Assembly (NCBI RefSeq): GCF_900113065.1
Contig: NZ_FOOA01000006.1
Coordinates: 124,001-188,000, forward strand
DNA from: Aureimonas phyllosphaerae
GTDB lineage: Bacteria > Pseudomonadota > Alphaproteobacteria > Rhizobiales > Rhizobiaceae
Direction of reading: 5' to 3'
Length of the DNA: 64,000 nt
Part shown: piece after piece, positions 20,814-27,323 of the stretch
Numbering within the stretch: position 1 is the stretch's first letter
Layout: the number at the start of each line of letters is the position of its first letter
Translations under genes and position numbers: made by a program
Notes under the pieces: generated by a model
What the model saw: the letters and a program-made list of their open reading frames with translations, nothing else
The model's database searches: none
Told to the model about the DNA's origin: nothing

Positions 20814-22424
20814 TCAGTCCTCGTCGGCCGCCATCTGCGACAGGATCTGGCCGCGACCGCGAGCGCGCAGGATCATCGGCACCACGAGGGCGAGCACCGC
20901 GAGCGTCAGGAGCGCGACGGCGAGCCAGGAGTGGACGAGGATCGTCGGATCGCCCTGGCTGATGGCGAGCGCGCGGCGCAGTTGCTGCTCGGCCATCGGC
21001 CCGAGGATCAGGCCGACCACGACGGGAGCGATCGGATAGCCGAAGCGGCGCAGCATGTAGCCCATCAGGCCGAAGAGCAGCAGCATGCCGAGCTCGACCG
21101 GCGAGGGGTTGGCGCCGATGCAGCCGAGCGTCGCGAAGACGAGGATGCCGGCATAGAGCCAGGGGCGGGGGATCGTGAGGAGCCGCACCCAGAGGCCGAT
21201 CAGCGGCAGGTTCAGCACCACCAGCATCAGGTTGGCGATGAGGAGGCTGGCGACGAGGCCCCAGACGATCTGCGGCGAGGTGATGAAGAGGAGCGGGCCC
21301 GGCTGGAGGCCGAACTGCTGGAAGGCGGCCAGCATGATCGCGGCGGTCGCCGAGGTCGGCAGGCCGAGCGTCAGGAGCGGCACGAGCGTCCCGGCGGCCG
21401 AGGCATTGTTGGCGGCCTCGGGACCCGCGACGCCCTCGATCGCGCCGTTGCCGAACTCTTCCGGGTATTTCGTGAGGTTCTTCTCCATCGAATAGGAGAG
21501 GAAGGTGCCGATCTCGGCGCCGCCGGCCGGCATCGCGCCGATCGGGAAGCCGACCGCGGTGCCGCGCAGCCACGGCTTCCACGAGCGCTTCCAGTCCTCC
21601 TTGGTCATCCAGAGCGAACCCTTCACCGCCTCGATCGTGTCGGGCGTGCGGGTCGCGGCGGCCGCCACCACGAGGCACTCGCCGATGGCGAACAGCGCGA
21701 CGGCGAGCGTCGTCACCTCGATGCCGTCGAGGAGGTTGGCCGAGATGCCGCCGAAGAAGCTGGCGAGCGCGGCCCAGAGCCCGTGCATGGAGGCGGCGGG
21801 GTCGGCGGCCATGCCCTGGAAAACTTGAGCGATCGGGGTCAGCGTCAGGCGCGCCTGGCCGGTCTGGAGGTCGATGCCGACAAGGCCGAGCGTCAGGCCG
21901 ACGACGAGCGCCGTCAGGCCGCGCAGCGCCGAATCGCCGAAGGCCGCCGAGACGGTGACGAAGGCGAGCAGCATCAGCGCGAAGTATTCGGCGGGGCCGA
22001 ACGAGAGCGCAAAGGAGACGATGACGGGCGCGAGGAAGGCGAGGCCGAGCGTCGCGATCAGGCCGGCCACGAAGGAGCCGATCGCGGCCGTCGCGAGAGC
22101 CGGTCCGCCGCGGCCCTTGCGGGCCATCTTGTTGCCCTCGAGCGCCGTGATGATCGAGGCGCTTTCGCCCGGCGTGTTGAGGAGGATCGAGGTCGTCGAC
22201 CCGCCGTACATGCCGCCGTAGTAGATGCCCGCGAACATGATGAGCGAGCCCGCGGCATCGAGCTGGTAGGTGACCGGCAGGAGCAGCGCGACGGTGAGCG
22301 CCGGCCCGATGCCCGGCAGGACGCCGACCGCGGTGCCGAGCGTCACGCCGATCAGCGCGTAGAGGAGGTTCATCGGCTGGGCGGCGGTCGCCAGGCCCTG
22401 ACCGAGAAGCGCGAAGGTATCCAT
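20814..22424 (-). CDS. tctA: Tripartite tricarboxylate transporter, large membrane subunit
   Basis: Inner-membrane carrier of about 536 residues and some twelve helices; with TctB and the periplasmic TctC it imports carboxylates by ion symport. Family signatures: [23 protein letters not shown] (about 21-43), [20 protein letters not shown] (about 65-84) and the second-half glycine motif [20 protein letters not shown] (about 287-306). The start is taken as ATG 22424 ([10 protein letters not shown]), matching the family; a TTG three codons upstream is also open. Last gene of tctC-tctB-tctA and followed by a terminator. Confidence 0.94.
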
Positions 22425-22522
22425 CGCTGGCAACCCATGGTTCGAGCGGGCGCGGGCCGATCCGTCGGGAGGCGCGCGCTGGAGGGGAGAAGCCTTCGGC
22501 GCCGGGCCGGAGGCGAAGAGGC

Positions 22523-23011
22523 TCAGCCGAACAGGCGTTCCAGCGGGCCGGCCGGCAGTGCGAGGTTCAGGACCTTCGTGAACATCAGCCAGATCGCGAG
22601 GCTCAGGAGGATGCCGACCGGGATCGACACGTAGAGCTTGCGCTTGCCGAAGGCCCGCGCGGTCGCCGCGAAGAGGAGGCCCGTGGCGATCGAGAAGCCG
22701 GCGGTGGTCAGGAGCAGGAGCTGGGCCGCCAGCCCGCCGACGATCCAGACGATCGGGGCGAACTCGTCATGGTCGCGCTCGGGAAAGTCGCCGCGCCACG
22801 CCTCGACCATGGTCCAGCCGGACAGGCCGAGGAGCGCGAACCCGATCAGGGTCGGAAAGGTCGCCGGCCCGATGCGGGCATAGGCGCCGCCGCCGATCTG
22901 GCTGGCGTCGAGCAGCACGAGGAGGCCGATGATCCCCAGCCCCAAGCCGATGGCAAACGCCGCCCGGTCGGGGCGGCGTTCGGTCGGCACGTGGTCCGAC
23001 GGGGCGCTCAT
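22523..23011 (-). CDS. tctB: Tripartite tricarboxylate transporter, small membrane subunit
   Basis: 162 residues with about four transmembrane helices (about 19-36, 48-66, 87-122, 128-148), the normal size and layout for TctB, the accessory membrane partner of TctA. Its ATG shares one base with the tctC stop (TAATG), so translation is coupled. About 98 bases separate it from tctA. Confidence 0.9.
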
Positions 23012-23961
23012 TACTGGACGAGGCCGATCGCGGTGAGGACTTCCTTGGTGTCCTCAATGTTCTTGGCGAGCTCGGTCTTGAAGGCGTCGCCGGCGAGGAA
23101 CGTGTTCTGCCAGTTGTTGCGCTCGAGGACCGCCTTCCATTCGGGGCTGTCGACCATCTTCTGCATGTTGGCGATGGTGGCGGCCTGCTCGTCGGCCGTG
23201 AGGCCCGGCGCGCCGGCGACCATACGCCAGTTCTGCAGCTCCATGTCGATGCCGGCTTCCTTCAGCGTCGGCGCCTCGGAGCCCGGCACCCGCTGGCCGC
23301 CCGTCGTGGCGAGAAGACGGAGCGTGCCGGCCTTCACTTGGCTCTCGAACTCGCCGTAGCCGGAGATGCCGGCCGCGACCTGCTGGCCGAGGATGGCCGC
23401 GAGGGCCTCGCCGCCGCCGGAGAACGCGATGTAGTTGATCGCCTTCGGGTCGGCGCCGACGGCCTGCGCGAGGAGGCCGGCCGCGATGTGGTCGGTGCCG
23501 CCGGCCGAGCCGCCGGCGATCGCCACGGCGCCTGGGTTCTCCTTCATCGCCTTCGCGAGGTCGGCGATGGTCTGGTAGGGCGAGGACGCCGGGACCACGA
23601 TGGCCTCGTCCTCGCCGGTGAGGCGGGCAAGCGGCGTCACCTGGTCGAGCGTGACCGGCGACTTGTTGGTGAGGATCGCGCCGACCATCACGTAGCCGCC
23701 GACGAGCAGCGCGTTCGGGTTGCCGGACTTCGTCGAGACGAACTGCGCGAGACCGATCGTGCCGCCGGCGCCCGGAACGTTGACGACCTGCACGTTGCTG
23801 GCGAGCTTGGTCTCCTGCAGGACGTTCTGCATGGCGCGGGCGGTCTGGTCCCAGCCGCCGCCGGGCGAGGCCGGGGCCATGATCTCGTAGGCGGGCGCCT
23901 GGGCGAAGGCGCTGGTGGAGACGAGAAGCGCGGCGAGCGCGCCGAAGATGATCGACTTCAT
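23011..23961 (-). CDS. tctC: Tripartite tricarboxylate transporter substrate-binding protein
   Basis: Periplasmic receptor, 316 residues, with a signal peptide ending at STSAFAQA (about 22). It shows the TctC/Bug features [15 protein letters not shown] (ligand-binding loop, about 32-46) and [15 protein letters not shown] (about 60-74). Members bind citrate, other carboxylates or amides; the ligand is not predictable here. The strong ribosome site GGGAGGATCC lies before ATG 23961. The upstream gap to the sensor gene (about 245 bases) carries a tandem repeat that may bind TctD. Confidence 0.93.
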
Positions 23962-24205: not shown

Positions 24206-26659
24206 TTATTGCGGTGCAACGATCTCCATCCAGGTGTCCAGAAACCGGGCACGGCGCTGGCGGTCGAGCCCGACGAGGAGGGAGGGGCCGAGCGGCACCG
24301 GTTGCACGGCACCGCGACCGCGCGCCGCGATGCGCTCGGCCGTCCAGCTTCCTTGCGTCCCCGGCACCACGGCGCCGAGTGCGGCGGGACCGGCAAGGAT
24401 CGACTGGCCTTCGTCGGACAGCGCGAACTCGAGGAAGGCTTCGCCGAGATCGGCGCGCTGCGCCCCGACCGGCACGAACATCGAGCGGGTCACGACGAGC
24501 ACGTAGTCGTCGGGCACCACGATGCCGATGCGCGCGCCCGCCGCCTGGCGCGCAAAGGCGTAGGAGCCGAGGACGTTGTAGCCGAGCGCGAGATCGCCGC
24601 GCTCGATGCCATCGAGGATCGCAGGGCTCGCCCCGGACAGGCGCACACCCGCTCGGCCGAAGGCGCTGGCGAGGCGCCAGAAATAGGACGATACCGACTG
24701 GTCCTGCGCTGCCAGCATGTAGCCGACGCCCGAGCGCGCGACGTCGTAGGTGGCGATCTTGCCGGCGAGCCGCACGGCCTGCTTTTCGAGAAGCTCGGCG
24801 AGTTCCAGATGGCTGCGCGGCACCTCGTTCTCGGCGAGGATGTCGGGATTGTAGACGATCACCGCCGGCTCGAAGGAGAAGCCGAACAGCTCGGAGCGCC
24901 ACTGCGCCCAGCCGGGGAGATTGGCAGCGCCCGCAAGGTTCAAGGGCTGCGCGAAGCCGTCGTTGACGAGCTTGACCTGAAGGTCGGAGGCCGAGCTGAT
25001 CATCACGTCCGGCGGCGGGCGGGATCCGGAGGCGAAGGCTTCGAAGATGGCGAGCGTCTCGCCCTCCTCGTAGGTGACGGTGACGTCGGGCCGGAGCGCC
25101 TGGAAGCCGCGCACGAGATGGGCGAAAAGGCCCGTGTCGGTGGCGCCGAGGATCTGGAGGCGCGTCTCGCCGGAGCCGTCCGGCGCGGGGTAGACGACTT
25201 CGGTGGCGCCCGCGCCGCCCGCCGGCAGCAGGAGAAGCGCCAGAAGCGCCAGCGAGGCGAGCGCCTTGACGCCCTGCGAAGGCGAGCGGACCGGAACGCG
25301 CGGCAGCACGAGCCGGACGAGCAGCCCGCCGCCCGGCCGGTCCTGGAGGTCGATGCGTCCGCGCTGGGCCTCGACCGCGCGGCGCACGATCGCAAGGCCA
25401 AGCCCCGAGCCGTTGGTGCCGCTCGATGCCGCGCCGCGCCGGAAGCGCTGGAACACCGCCTCGCGCTCTTCGATCGCGATCCCCGGACCCCGGTCAGCGA
25501 CGTCGATCCCGACCGATCCGTCGGCGCGCGCCGCGACCGCGATCTCCACCGGGCCGCGGCTGTAGGTGAGGGCGTTGTCGACGAGGTTGCGGAGCATCTC
25601 GCGCAGGACCACGCGGTCGGCCCCGAGCGTGGCCTCGGCCATGCCGGGCGCGATCGAGACGCGCACGCGGTCGGCGGTGTCGGGGTCGAGCCGGCGCACG
25701 ACCTCGTTCACCACGGCGCCGACCGGCGTCGCGCCCGCCGGCGTGGTGTCGAGCCGGTGCGAGATCGTCGCGTCCATCAGGAGCTGGGAGACGAGCTGGC
25801 TCGCCTGCACCGCCTCGTCGTGGATGCGCGCGACTTGGGTGCGCAGCGCCTCGGGGTCGCTCTCGCCGCGCGCCACCTCGGCCTGGAGGCGCAGCGAGGC
25901 GAGCGGCGTGCGCACCTCGTGTGCGGCTTCGGCGACGAGGGCCTCCAGGCGCTCGCGCGCCAGCGCCAGCCGGCCCATGAAATCGTTCAGCGCCCCGACC
26001 AACTGCACGGCCTCCTGCGGCACCGGCAGGTCGACGGGCGACAGGTTTTCCGGGGCGCGGGCGCGCAGGTGCCGCTCCAGCGACAGGAGCGGGCGGAAGG
26101 CGCGGCCGATGCCGAACCACAGGATCACCAGCGCCAGGAGGAGGAGCGCCACCACCGGCAGGAGCGCGTTCTGGAAGATCTCGCGGGCGAGCGCGCGCCG
26201 CTCACCGAGCGTTTCGGCGACGCGCACCGTCGCCCAGCCCGTGCCGGACGCGGTCGAGACGAGCCGCCCGGCGCTCGCCACGCGCACCGGCTCGCCGCGG
26301 TAGACGGCGTCGGCGAAGGTCGGCTCGCTGTCGTCCTCGGGGACGAGGCCCTCCGACAGGTCGGGATAGCCGGTGACGTTGGTGCCGTCCGGCGCTTCCA
26401 CCGCGTAGAAGATGCGGTCGCGGCCGGAGAACATCGAGAAGGAGGCGAGCGGCAGTTCCACCGTCACCTCGCCCTCCTCGAGCTGGACGGCGCCCGCGAT
26501 GATGAGAGCCGAGGCGCCGAGCAGGCTGTCGAAGGCGCGCTCGGACGCCCGCTCGGCATAGTCGCGGATGAAGGCGACGAGGACGAAGGCGGCGAGCAGC
26601 AGAAGAAGTGTCGCGGCGACCAGCACGCGACGCCGGATCGAGACCGTCCTATCCGCCAT
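24206..26659 (-). CDS. tctE: TctE-like sensor histidine kinase fused to a periplasmic binding-protein domain
   Basis: One uninterrupted frame of 817 residues. Kinase part: helix 11-31, periplasmic sensor about 32-163, helix 165-185, HAMP-like region, HisKA with AHEVRTP (His 247), HATPase with NLVDNAL and GSGLGLAIVRR, ending near 453. Then a third hydrophobic segment (about 465-486, LASLALLALLLLPAGGAGA, signal-peptide-like) and a 330-residue type II solute-binding domain (TEVVYPAPDGSG ... IVYNPDILAE ... LALGYNVLGSYAFAR) like iron/phosphonate ABC binding proteins, not TctC. The kinase start ATG 26659 overlaps tctD by 11 bases. An in-frame GTG at 25309 could start a separate binding protein, but it has no good ribosome site. 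Alternatively a stop was lost by mutation or sequencing error. Confidence 0.85.
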   Translation of the reverse strand: MADRTVSIRRRVLVAATLLLLLAAFVLVAFIRDYAERASERAFDSLLGASALIIAGAVQLEEGEVTVELPLASFSMFSGRDRIFYAVEAPDGTNVTGYPDLSEGLVPEDDSEPTFADAVYRGEPVRVASAGRLVSTASGTGWATVRVAETLGERRALAREIFQNALLPVVALLLLALVILWFGIGRAFRPLLSLERHLRARAPENLSPVDLPVPQEAVQLVGALNDFMGRLALARERLEALVAEAAHEVRTPLASLRLQAEVARGESDPEALRTQVARIHDEAVQASQLVSQLLMDATISHRLDTTPAGATPVGAVVNEVVRRLDPDTADRVRVSIAPGMAEATLGADRVVLREMLRNLVDNALTYSRGPVEIAVAARADGSVGIDVADRGPGIAIEEREAVFQRFRRGAASSGTNGSGLGLAIVRRAVEAQRGRIDLQDRPGGGLLVRLVLPRVPVRSPSQGVKALASLALLALLLLPAGGAGATEVVYPAPDGSGETRLQILGATDTGLFAHLVRGFQALRPDVTVTYEEGETLAIFEAFASGSRPPPDVMISSASDLQVKLVNDGFAQPLNLAGAANLPGWAQWRSELFGFSFEPAVIVYNPDILAENEVPRSHLELAELLEKQAVRLAGKIATYDVARSGVGYMLAAQDQSVSSYFWRLASAFGRAGVRLSGASPAILDGIERGDLALGYNVLGSYAFARQAAGARIGIVVPDDYVLVVTRSMFVPVGAQRADLGEAFLEFALSDEGQSILAGPAALGAVVPGTQGSWTAERIAARGRGAVQPVPLGPSLLVGLDRQRRARFLDTWMEIVAPQ

Positions 26660-27323
26660 CGCGCACCCGCGCGACATAGCCGGACCCGCGCACCGTCGCG
26701 ATCTCCAGGGCCGAGCCCTCCAGCTTGCGGCGCAGGCGCGAGACGTAGAGTTCGAGCGCGTTGATCGAGACCGCCTCGTCGAAGGAGAAGAGCTGCGCCA
26801 TCAGCTGCTCCTTGCCGACGACGACCCCGGGCCGCGACAGGAGGATCTCGAGCAGGCGGAACTCGCGCCGGCCGATGTCGAGCCGTTCGCCGCCCCGGCT
26901 CACCGCGTGGCCGGCGAGATCCACCGTCACGTCGCCGAAGGCCGAGACGCTGGTGGTCTGCCCGGCCGGGCGGCGCAGGAGCGCGCGCAGCCGGGCGTCG
27001 AGCTCGCGCAGGTCGAAGGGTTTGGTCAGGTAGTCGTCGGCGCCCTGGTCGAGGAGGCTGACCTTGTCGTCGATTTCGGAGCGCGCCGTCATCACGAGGA
27101 CGGGGACGCTGGAGCGCGCGCGGCGCAGCTGCGAGATTACCCAGAGCCCGTCGCGGCCGGGCAGCGTGAGGTCGAGGATCACCGCGTCGAACGTGTCGAG
27201 CCCGAAGGCCTCCACCGCGTCCTCGGCGCTCTTCACCCACTCCACCGCGTGGCCGGCCCCGCGCAGGTGGCGATTGACGGCATCGCCCAGTCCCTCGTTG
27301 TCCTCCACCAGGAGCATGCGCAT
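26649..27323 (-). CDS. tctD: OmpR/PhoB-family response regulator (TctD-like)
   Basis: 224 residues: receiver domain 1-115 with acidic VEDNE, phosphoacceptor Asp 51 (VILDLTLPGRDG), Thr in VLVMTARSE and Lys in YLTKPFDLREL; then a winged-helix DNA-binding domain with GRREFRLLEILLSRPGVVV and ELYVSRLRRKLEGSA. The start is ATG 27323, two codons before an alternative ATG. It lies first in the order tctD-tctE-(tctCBA), the usual arrangement for carboxylate-responsive control of the transporter. It is divergent from the SAF-domain oxidoreductase. Confidence 0.9.
   Translation of the reverse strand: MRMLLVEDNEGLGDAVNRHLRGAGHAVEWVKSAEDAVEAFGLDTFDAVILDLTLPGRDGLWVISQLRRARSSVPVLVMTARSEIDDKVSLLDQGADDYLTKPFDLRELDARLRALLRRPAGQTTSVSAFGDVTVDLAGHAVSRGGERLDIGRREFRLLEILLSRPGVVVGKEQLMAQLFSFDEAVSINALELYVSRLRRKLEGSALEIATVRGSGYVARVRDGG

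Follow-up and report, generated by a model that had tools for sequence, protein, structure and literature searches.

In the window, namely the 64,000-nucleotide stretch of the Aureimonas phyllosphaerae genome analyzed here, a sensor histidine kinase and a solute-binding protein (SBP) are encoded together in one continuous frame, which is conserved and is tied by its locus context to the tctCBA genes. The kinase, the regulator next to it, and the SBP form a cassette of known kinds, and the one-frame form, with a putative signal peptide in the middle of the chain, is a variant of it. We estimate at roughly 0.55 the probability that a single chain is made and processed to a membrane-anchored kinase plus a periplasmic SBP, and that the latter would report a tricarboxylate to the kinase and thereby turn on tctCBA.

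Results

A kinase and an SBP in one open frame

The fused gene is read on the minus strand from 26659 to 24206 (Table 1), and its 817 codons run without interruption, corresponding to a computed mass of 86.8 kDa. On this strand, the genes follow one another as the regulator, the fused gene, 244 bases, tctC, tctB, and tctA. The N-terminal part of the protein has the domain set of a TctE/BctE-type kinase in Pfam: namely, 2CSK_N, which we take as the mark of this kinase class, HisKA with the phosphoacceptor His, and HATPase_c. As expected of such kinases, furthermore, the gene adjoins an OmpR-type regulator and tctCBA; the label “TctE-like” is nonetheless based on gene context. His247 was invariant in all of the 54 fused proteins aligned, which were 33–76% identical to that of the window. 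Kinases of the TctE/BctE type typically end after the catalytic domain, whereas the fused protein runs 363 residues further with the SBP, in which four solute-binding families of Pfam (SBP_bac_1, SBP_bac_11, SBP_bac_8, and SBP_bac_6) were matched over about residues 509–764. No NCBIfam model reached its cut-off against the fused protein among the 25 of 80 matches listed.

A preliminary description of this DNA had proposed that one uninterrupted frame encodes a complete kinase, a third hydrophobic segment, and a full-size SBP domain, and all of these parts were indeed recovered. The hydrophobic core of the third segment spans residues 466–479 (25223–25264) and lies inside the region of 25201–25309, for which the description had allowed that a stop or a frameshift might separate the two halves. 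We looked for such an interruption at the junction and found none.

Table 1. Features of the fused gene and its neighbors in the window
Feature	Position	Strand	Basis
Fused sensor kinase and SBP gene, 817 aa	24206..26659	-	Open frame, Pfam, 20/21 genus genomes
2CSK_N: end of TM1, periplasmic sensor loop, start of TM2 (residues 20-161)	26177..26602	-	Pfam, E 2.9e-35
HisKA dimerization and phosphoacceptor domain (239-299), His247 at 25919-25921	25763..25945	-	Pfam
HATPase_c catalytic domain (348-454)	25298..25618	-	Pfam, E 1.8e-23
Linker and internal signal-peptide-like segment (455-485)	25205..25297	-	Conservation and motif comparisons
Predicted signal peptidase I site, A485^T486	25202..25207	-	A485 in 52/54 fused proteins; inferred
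SBP domain (486-817)	24209..25204	-	Pfam; PDB 3c9h, E 1.8e-70
Response regulator, OmpR type (TctD-like), overlapping the kinase start	26649..27323	-	Response_reg and Trans_reg_C
tctC	23011..23961	-	Pfam TctC, E 5.3e-24
tctB	22523..23011	-	Pfam TctB, E 8.9e-21
tctA	20814..22433	-	Pfam TctA, E 9.6e-144

Distribution of the fused and split forms

The full-length fused frame was found without a stop in 20 of the 21 Aureimonas genomes, the window included, and the closest relative found was 96% identical (in G010). In the exceptional genome, G017, the best match was kinase-only (E 8e-29, residues 133–462). We also noticed that another Aureimonas genome, G015, is equipped with a second fused copy (L051, at G015:C2:238000-250000), which is 39% identical and adjoins another SBP gene; an ABC permease match lies within the same fetched stretch.

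When the species-genome collection was scanned with the fused query, 157 relatives were confirmed, and all of the best 80 were fused; having been picked by a fused query, however, these 80 are biased to the fused form and are no guide to the frequency of fusion. Fused genes occur in Aureimonas, Devosia, Pelagibacterium, Labrys, Mesorhizobium, Yoonia/Loktanella, Achromobacter, Bordetella, and a few others, and 98 unique fused proteins were extracted (100 by the HMM count). Because the frame is kept open in 20 of the 21 genus genomes and is fused in 80 of the best 80 relatives, the fusion is not an artifact, and a frameshift, an assembly error, or a pseudogene is ruled out. In one of the 80, L125, the match length is not divisible by three and the short frame of 727 aa has a broken kinase part; we retained this locus for the junction counts but excluded it from the HMM training. 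A locus composed of the regulator, the fused gene, and tctCBA was also seen in a record labeled Mycobacterium sp. KBS0706 (L121), which groups with the proteobacterial loci, and either the label or the assembly of this record is doubtful.

In evenly drawn samples, fusion is the minority form. Within the order, 178 of 397 genomes gave a match (E 1e-40), and 21 of them, including the window, had both halves in one stop-free frame. Within the class, 27 of 385 genomes matched (E 1e-60) and three were fused (the window included), and in the phylum, where 96 of 398 genomes matched (E 1e-60), the window was the sole fused one among the matches listed. The homologues are thus not always split, as the preliminary description had considered they might be, given the 98 unique fused proteins, although most relatives sampled across the phylum have the kinase and the SBP as separate genes, usually adjoining tctA.

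Origin of the fusion

On sequence grounds, the fused forms and the split kinase/SBP pairs share a common ancestry. Among 61 split pairs, 47 were tandem and 14 divergent. Where a start was chosen in the tandem pairs (n = 41), an SD-like site was present in 37 and a 4-nt overlap with the kinase stop in 24, the choice itself favoring SD-like sites; at three split loci, furthermore, the SBP that comes after the kinase stop is in frame with the kinase.

On the SBP tree, which has 98 rows (37 fused and 61 separate), the fused/separate label changes five times. A main fused clade of 31 rows (SH-aLRT 99) holds the protein of the window as well as those of Achromobacter and Bordetella, and the fused proteins of L051 + L163, L161, L164 + L214, and L213 are placed outside it. 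This tree rejected a single origin of all fusions, the constraint of one clade for all fused SBP rows giving an AU p of 0.0003. The main clade plus L164 + L214 was also rejected (p 0.0018); the main clade plus L213 and the main clade plus L161 were not (p 0.18 each). The groups in these tests were named after the tree was seen, and the branch of L163 is long. On the kinase tree, with 30 fused among its 85 rows, there were four label changes and the same main groups, and L051 + L163, which are apart on the SBP tree, are sisters of the main clade. These trees support at least two origins of the fusion, five being a parsimony count. As the split form is spread wider, we infer that the change went from split to fused, on trees whose root is not known.

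Start signals for a separate SBP are mostly lost in the fused genes. Over the stretch that lies 28–62 residues ahead of the SBP core, ATG combined with an SD-like site was present in 7 of 100 fused genes versus 64 of 98 separate SBPs, and the corresponding numbers for any start codon with an SD-like site were 27 of 100 and 71 of 98; in 11 of the 100 fused genes, this stretch had neither ATG nor GTG. When the gene of the window was searched for in-frame ATG, GTG, and TTG at 10–75 residues before the SBP core, only two GTGs were found, both inside the kinase, and there was no SD-like site at either.

The third hydrophobic segment

In 21 fused proteins, residues 456–489 showed a mean pairwise identity of 24%, compared with 64–83% in the other seven segments; TM1 and TM2 had 71% and 68%, respectively. 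Within this variable stretch, column 485 is Ala in 52 of the 54 aligned proteins, and the next best column of 455–489 reaches 38 of 54. The two proteins with no aligned A485 (L121 and L163) have an AxA nearby that was put elsewhere by the aligner. Substrates of signal peptidase I carry small residues at positions −3 and −1 and no Pro at +1, after a hydrophobic core, and this is the pattern found at A485: in the 52 proteins, position −3 is occupied by A (32), V (6), G (4), L (4), T (3), S (2), or P (1), and Pro is never at +1. Upon realignment of the segment, the top column reached 51 of 54, compared with at most 36 in 40 shuffles of the whole segment and at most 44 in 40 shuffles of its last 14 residues; these shuffles ignore relatedness, and the better control is the other columns of the same segment, which are of equal ancestry.

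A strict [AV]xA motif after the core, scored by a fixed rule, was present in 80 of 99 fused junctions (one of the 100 was too short), 83 of 98 separate SBPs, and 98 of 101 TctC proteins, and it was found in only 21 of 99 cases after TM1 and 4 of 100 after TM2. Shuffling of the fused junctions gave a mean of 50.9 and a maximum of 63 in 300 runs. A lax motif separates the groups less well (fused, 97/99; separate SBPs, 96/98; TctC, 100/101; TM1, 60/99; TM2, 68/100). When the set was thinned to 23 junctions, the strict motif was found in 15 versus 12.4 in shuffles, which is not significant, and the lax motif in 23 versus 19.1. An anchored version of the test (strict, 61/91 versus a shuffle mean of 39.5; lax, 75/91 versus 69.5) missed the Achromobacter clade, in which the site is further from the anchor, and was superseded by the fixed rule. 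The median nonpolar run was 17 in the third segment, 14 in separate SBPs, 16 in TctC, and 20 in TM1/TM2. With a matrix learned from separate SBPs, the fused junctions scored well below, 24 of 100 reaching the level of 90% of separate SBPs, which, taken at face value, would count against a signal peptide. The matrices trained on separate SBPs and on TctC, however, drifted to family-specific mature sequence and were dropped. On the whole, the third segment looks like the former signal peptide of the SBP. In L134 (Achromobacter animicus), the SBP domain is set off from the predicted cleavage site by an extra Ala/Pro-rich stretch.

Gene neighborhoods

The regulator was present in 78 of 80 fused loci and in all of 35 split loci. 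Among the fused loci (the best 80 of 157), 49 have tctA, 20 have an ABC permease, and 11 have neither, and tctA was also present in all of a further 20 fused loci, which are mostly from the same genomes as the best 80. The split loci keep the kinase, the regulator, and the SBP together; 29 of the 35 adjoin tctA, and six have neither tctA nor an ABC permease. In no fused or split locus were tctA and an ABC permease found together by a search with one Achromobacter permease query (E 1e-10), which could miss distant permeases. An SBP gene is therefore found with a kinase and a regulator and without an ABC permease of its own, as in three-component systems, the exception being the 20 loci with a permease. 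These loci are all from Achromobacter or Bordetella (within L119–L142), and each also has a second, separate SBP gene; in L119, the one locus checked with Pfam, the SBP, permease, and ABC ATPase genes come after the fused gene. With a separate gene for a homologous SBP and an ABC permease gene next to the fused one, the 20 loci look as if the sensing and transport SBPs were paralogues.

The 11 fused loci with neither gene are from Devosia (L090, L095–L097, L100–L105, and L108), some of them on short contigs. M20-peptidase genes are located near the fused gene in L101 and L103, together with a dapD-like gene in L103. The fused gene of L193 (G406), outside the main clade, is near the citrate lyase genes citF and citG. 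In the genome of the window, we also noticed a second tct-type locus (L060, at G000:C50:64000-76000) with a regulator, a related kinase, TctC, and TctA, and no SBP of the fused-gene type was found beside its kinase.

The protein of PDB 3C9H is 84–86% identical to separate SBPs, one of which, that of L053, adjoins a kinase, a regulator, and tctCBA; no paper on the 3C9H structure was found in the literature search. The present results suggest that 3C9H-type proteins, which are labeled as ABC transport proteins, are sensors. Two split SBPs carry lipoprotein-like signals, LAGC in L165 (G269) and LAAC in L166 (G183), and judging from these lipoboxes the same cassette may have a membrane-anchored SBP.

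Discussion

In the mechanism that we favor, a kinase gene and a receptor gene would have become one frame of a three-component nutrient sensor, and a single chain would be produced from it. The kinase would be anchored by TM1, the periplasmic loop, and TM2, with its catalytic domains remaining in the cytoplasm, and the former signal peptide of the SBP would then enter the membrane with its N terminus inside and carry the SBP out in a second export. Signal peptidase I would most likely cut after A485, and the two products, in equimolar amounts, would be a membrane-anchored kinase (about 51.5 kDa) and a soluble SBP in the periplasm (about 35.3 kDa). The SBP, when loaded with what its context suggests to be citrate or another tricarboxylate, would dock on the periplasmic domain of the kinase, and the TctD-like regulator would relay the signal and turn on tctCBA. 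As regards the SBP as a separate polypeptide, the gene shows one frame plus a predicted cleavage site that is conserved; a single frame giving two products appears likelier than one sensor of 87 kDa because the signal peptidase I site is kept while the rest of the segment diverges. We set the odds slightly lower, nonetheless, because the thinned motif test, the lax counts, and the matrix from separate SBPs are not all supportive. The more general proposal is that of a signaling polyprotein whose mid-chain signal peptide is cleaved by signal peptidase I, which has arisen more than once from neighboring kinase and receptor genes, and which ensures 1:1 synthesis; in our view, this proposal has an even chance of being correct.

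The main rival to cleavage is a third segment that stays uncut in the membrane and holds the SBP C-terminally on the periplasmic face, at a high local concentration by the kinase loop; this would agree with a frame for one polypeptide, with a kinase that would set the N terminus of the segment inside, and with a nonpolar run that is longer than in separate SBPs (a median of 17 versus 14), and the lipoprotein-like signals in L165 and L166 suggest that anchoring is tolerated. We consider it unlikely, though a serious contender, as A485 stands out as near-invariant in an otherwise variable segment, TM1 and TM2 are conserved at about 70% versus 24% in the third segment, and the strict site is seldom seen after TM1 or TM2. 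Much less probable still is additional synthesis of the SBP by itself through internal initiation. In its favor, 27 of 100 fused genes have a start codon of some kind with an SD-like site in the stretch before the SBP core, and in L007 such a site accompanies an ATG located just ahead of the hydrophobic core; an internal start is nonetheless disfavored by the scarcity of ATG with an SD-like site (7/100 versus 64/98 in separate SBPs), by the 11 of 100 fused genes with no ATG or GTG in the stretch, and by the gene of the window, which has no start codon there outside the kinase.

Alternatively, the SBP half might not be the receptor, and the kinase could be driven by its own loop or by loaded TctC, with the SBP serving transport or being a by-product. 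The doubt over which binding protein reports here arises mainly because BctC reports to BctE in a tct-type system; indeed, BctC is required for citrate induction and contacts BctE in a two-hybrid assay, as reported (PMC5812351). The L060 locus with TctC and no such SBP found, and the ABC permease beside the fused gene in the 20 Achromobacter/Bordetella loci, would also fit. Those 20 loci hold a second, separate SBP as well, however, and no ABC permease was found with the one query (E 1e-10) at the loci with tctA (fused, 49/80 and 20/20; split, 29/35). The kinase and SBP trees, furthermore, have their main groups in common, and we regard a nonreceptor SBP as improbable.

A sensing role for tctCBA, which the preliminary description had proposed, is plausible, given that the fusion is genuine and conserved and that its gene context links it to tctCBA. 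A sensor domain that stays tethered at the C terminus for good, in which it had cast this role, is not favored, as the third segment keeps a signal peptidase I site while the rest diverges. The layout that it had set apart from standard two-component systems is better seen as the fused form of a known cassette of regulator, kinase, and SBP than as something wholly unknown. Cleavage of the chain would make it a bacterial signal-transduction polyprotein that supplies kinase and receptor in equal numbers, and the genome annotation of such kinases would then conceal another product, which is secreted; without cleavage, the protein would be a kinase that carries a tethered flytrap behind its catalytic domain. 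In either case, a kinase/SBP pair seems to be widespread at tct loci, and in Aureimonas and several other bacteria both halves of a nutrient sensor may come from a single gene.

Comparison with known systems

A kinase fused at its C terminus to an SBP was not found described in the open-access literature, most subscription journals being outside this search. FbcH of Bradyrhizobium would be a precedent for one chain that is cut into two proteins, for which no confirmation was found in the same literature, but it is not a signaling protein, unlike the fused kinase and SBP. As reported (PMC13186574), a Rieske protein of Streptomyces has a second, in-chain export signal by which its C-terminal domain is exported; it thus resembles the fused protein in its mid-chain export signal and differs from it in using a Tat signal and having no signaling role. 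BvgS and EvgS have flytrap (SBP-fold) domains in the same chain, in the periplasmic region ahead of the kinase (PMC8534201), whereas Pfam places the SBP of the fused protein C-terminally, after the catalytic domain and behind the signal-peptide-like segment.

Comparable, too, are HptASR of Staphylococcus aureus, in which the loaded secreted binding protein HptA reports to the loop of the kinase HptS (PMC8774646), and PgtABC of Salmonella, in which loaded PgtC, also secreted, reports to the loop of the kinase PgtB (PMC11077982). Like the system proposed here, both combine a regulator, a kinase, and a binding protein for an anionic nutrient and control a separate transporter; in contrast to it, they have separate genes and other ligands, and the likeness is one of description. 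TctD-TctE and BctD-BctE resemble the locus of the window in that a regulator and a kinase lie beside tctCBA or bctCBA. In Bordetella pertussis, citrate-bound BctC, a TctC, acts with BctE as the reported citrate reporter, and the expression of bctCBA depends on BctDE, which requires BctC in its loaded form (PMC5812351). There, the reporter is the transporter's own TctC-type SBP, whereas in the window an ABC-type SBP lies within the kinase frame. The split tct cassettes, finally, have the homologous kinase and SBP beside tctCBA as two genes, which often overlap by 4 nt (24/41).
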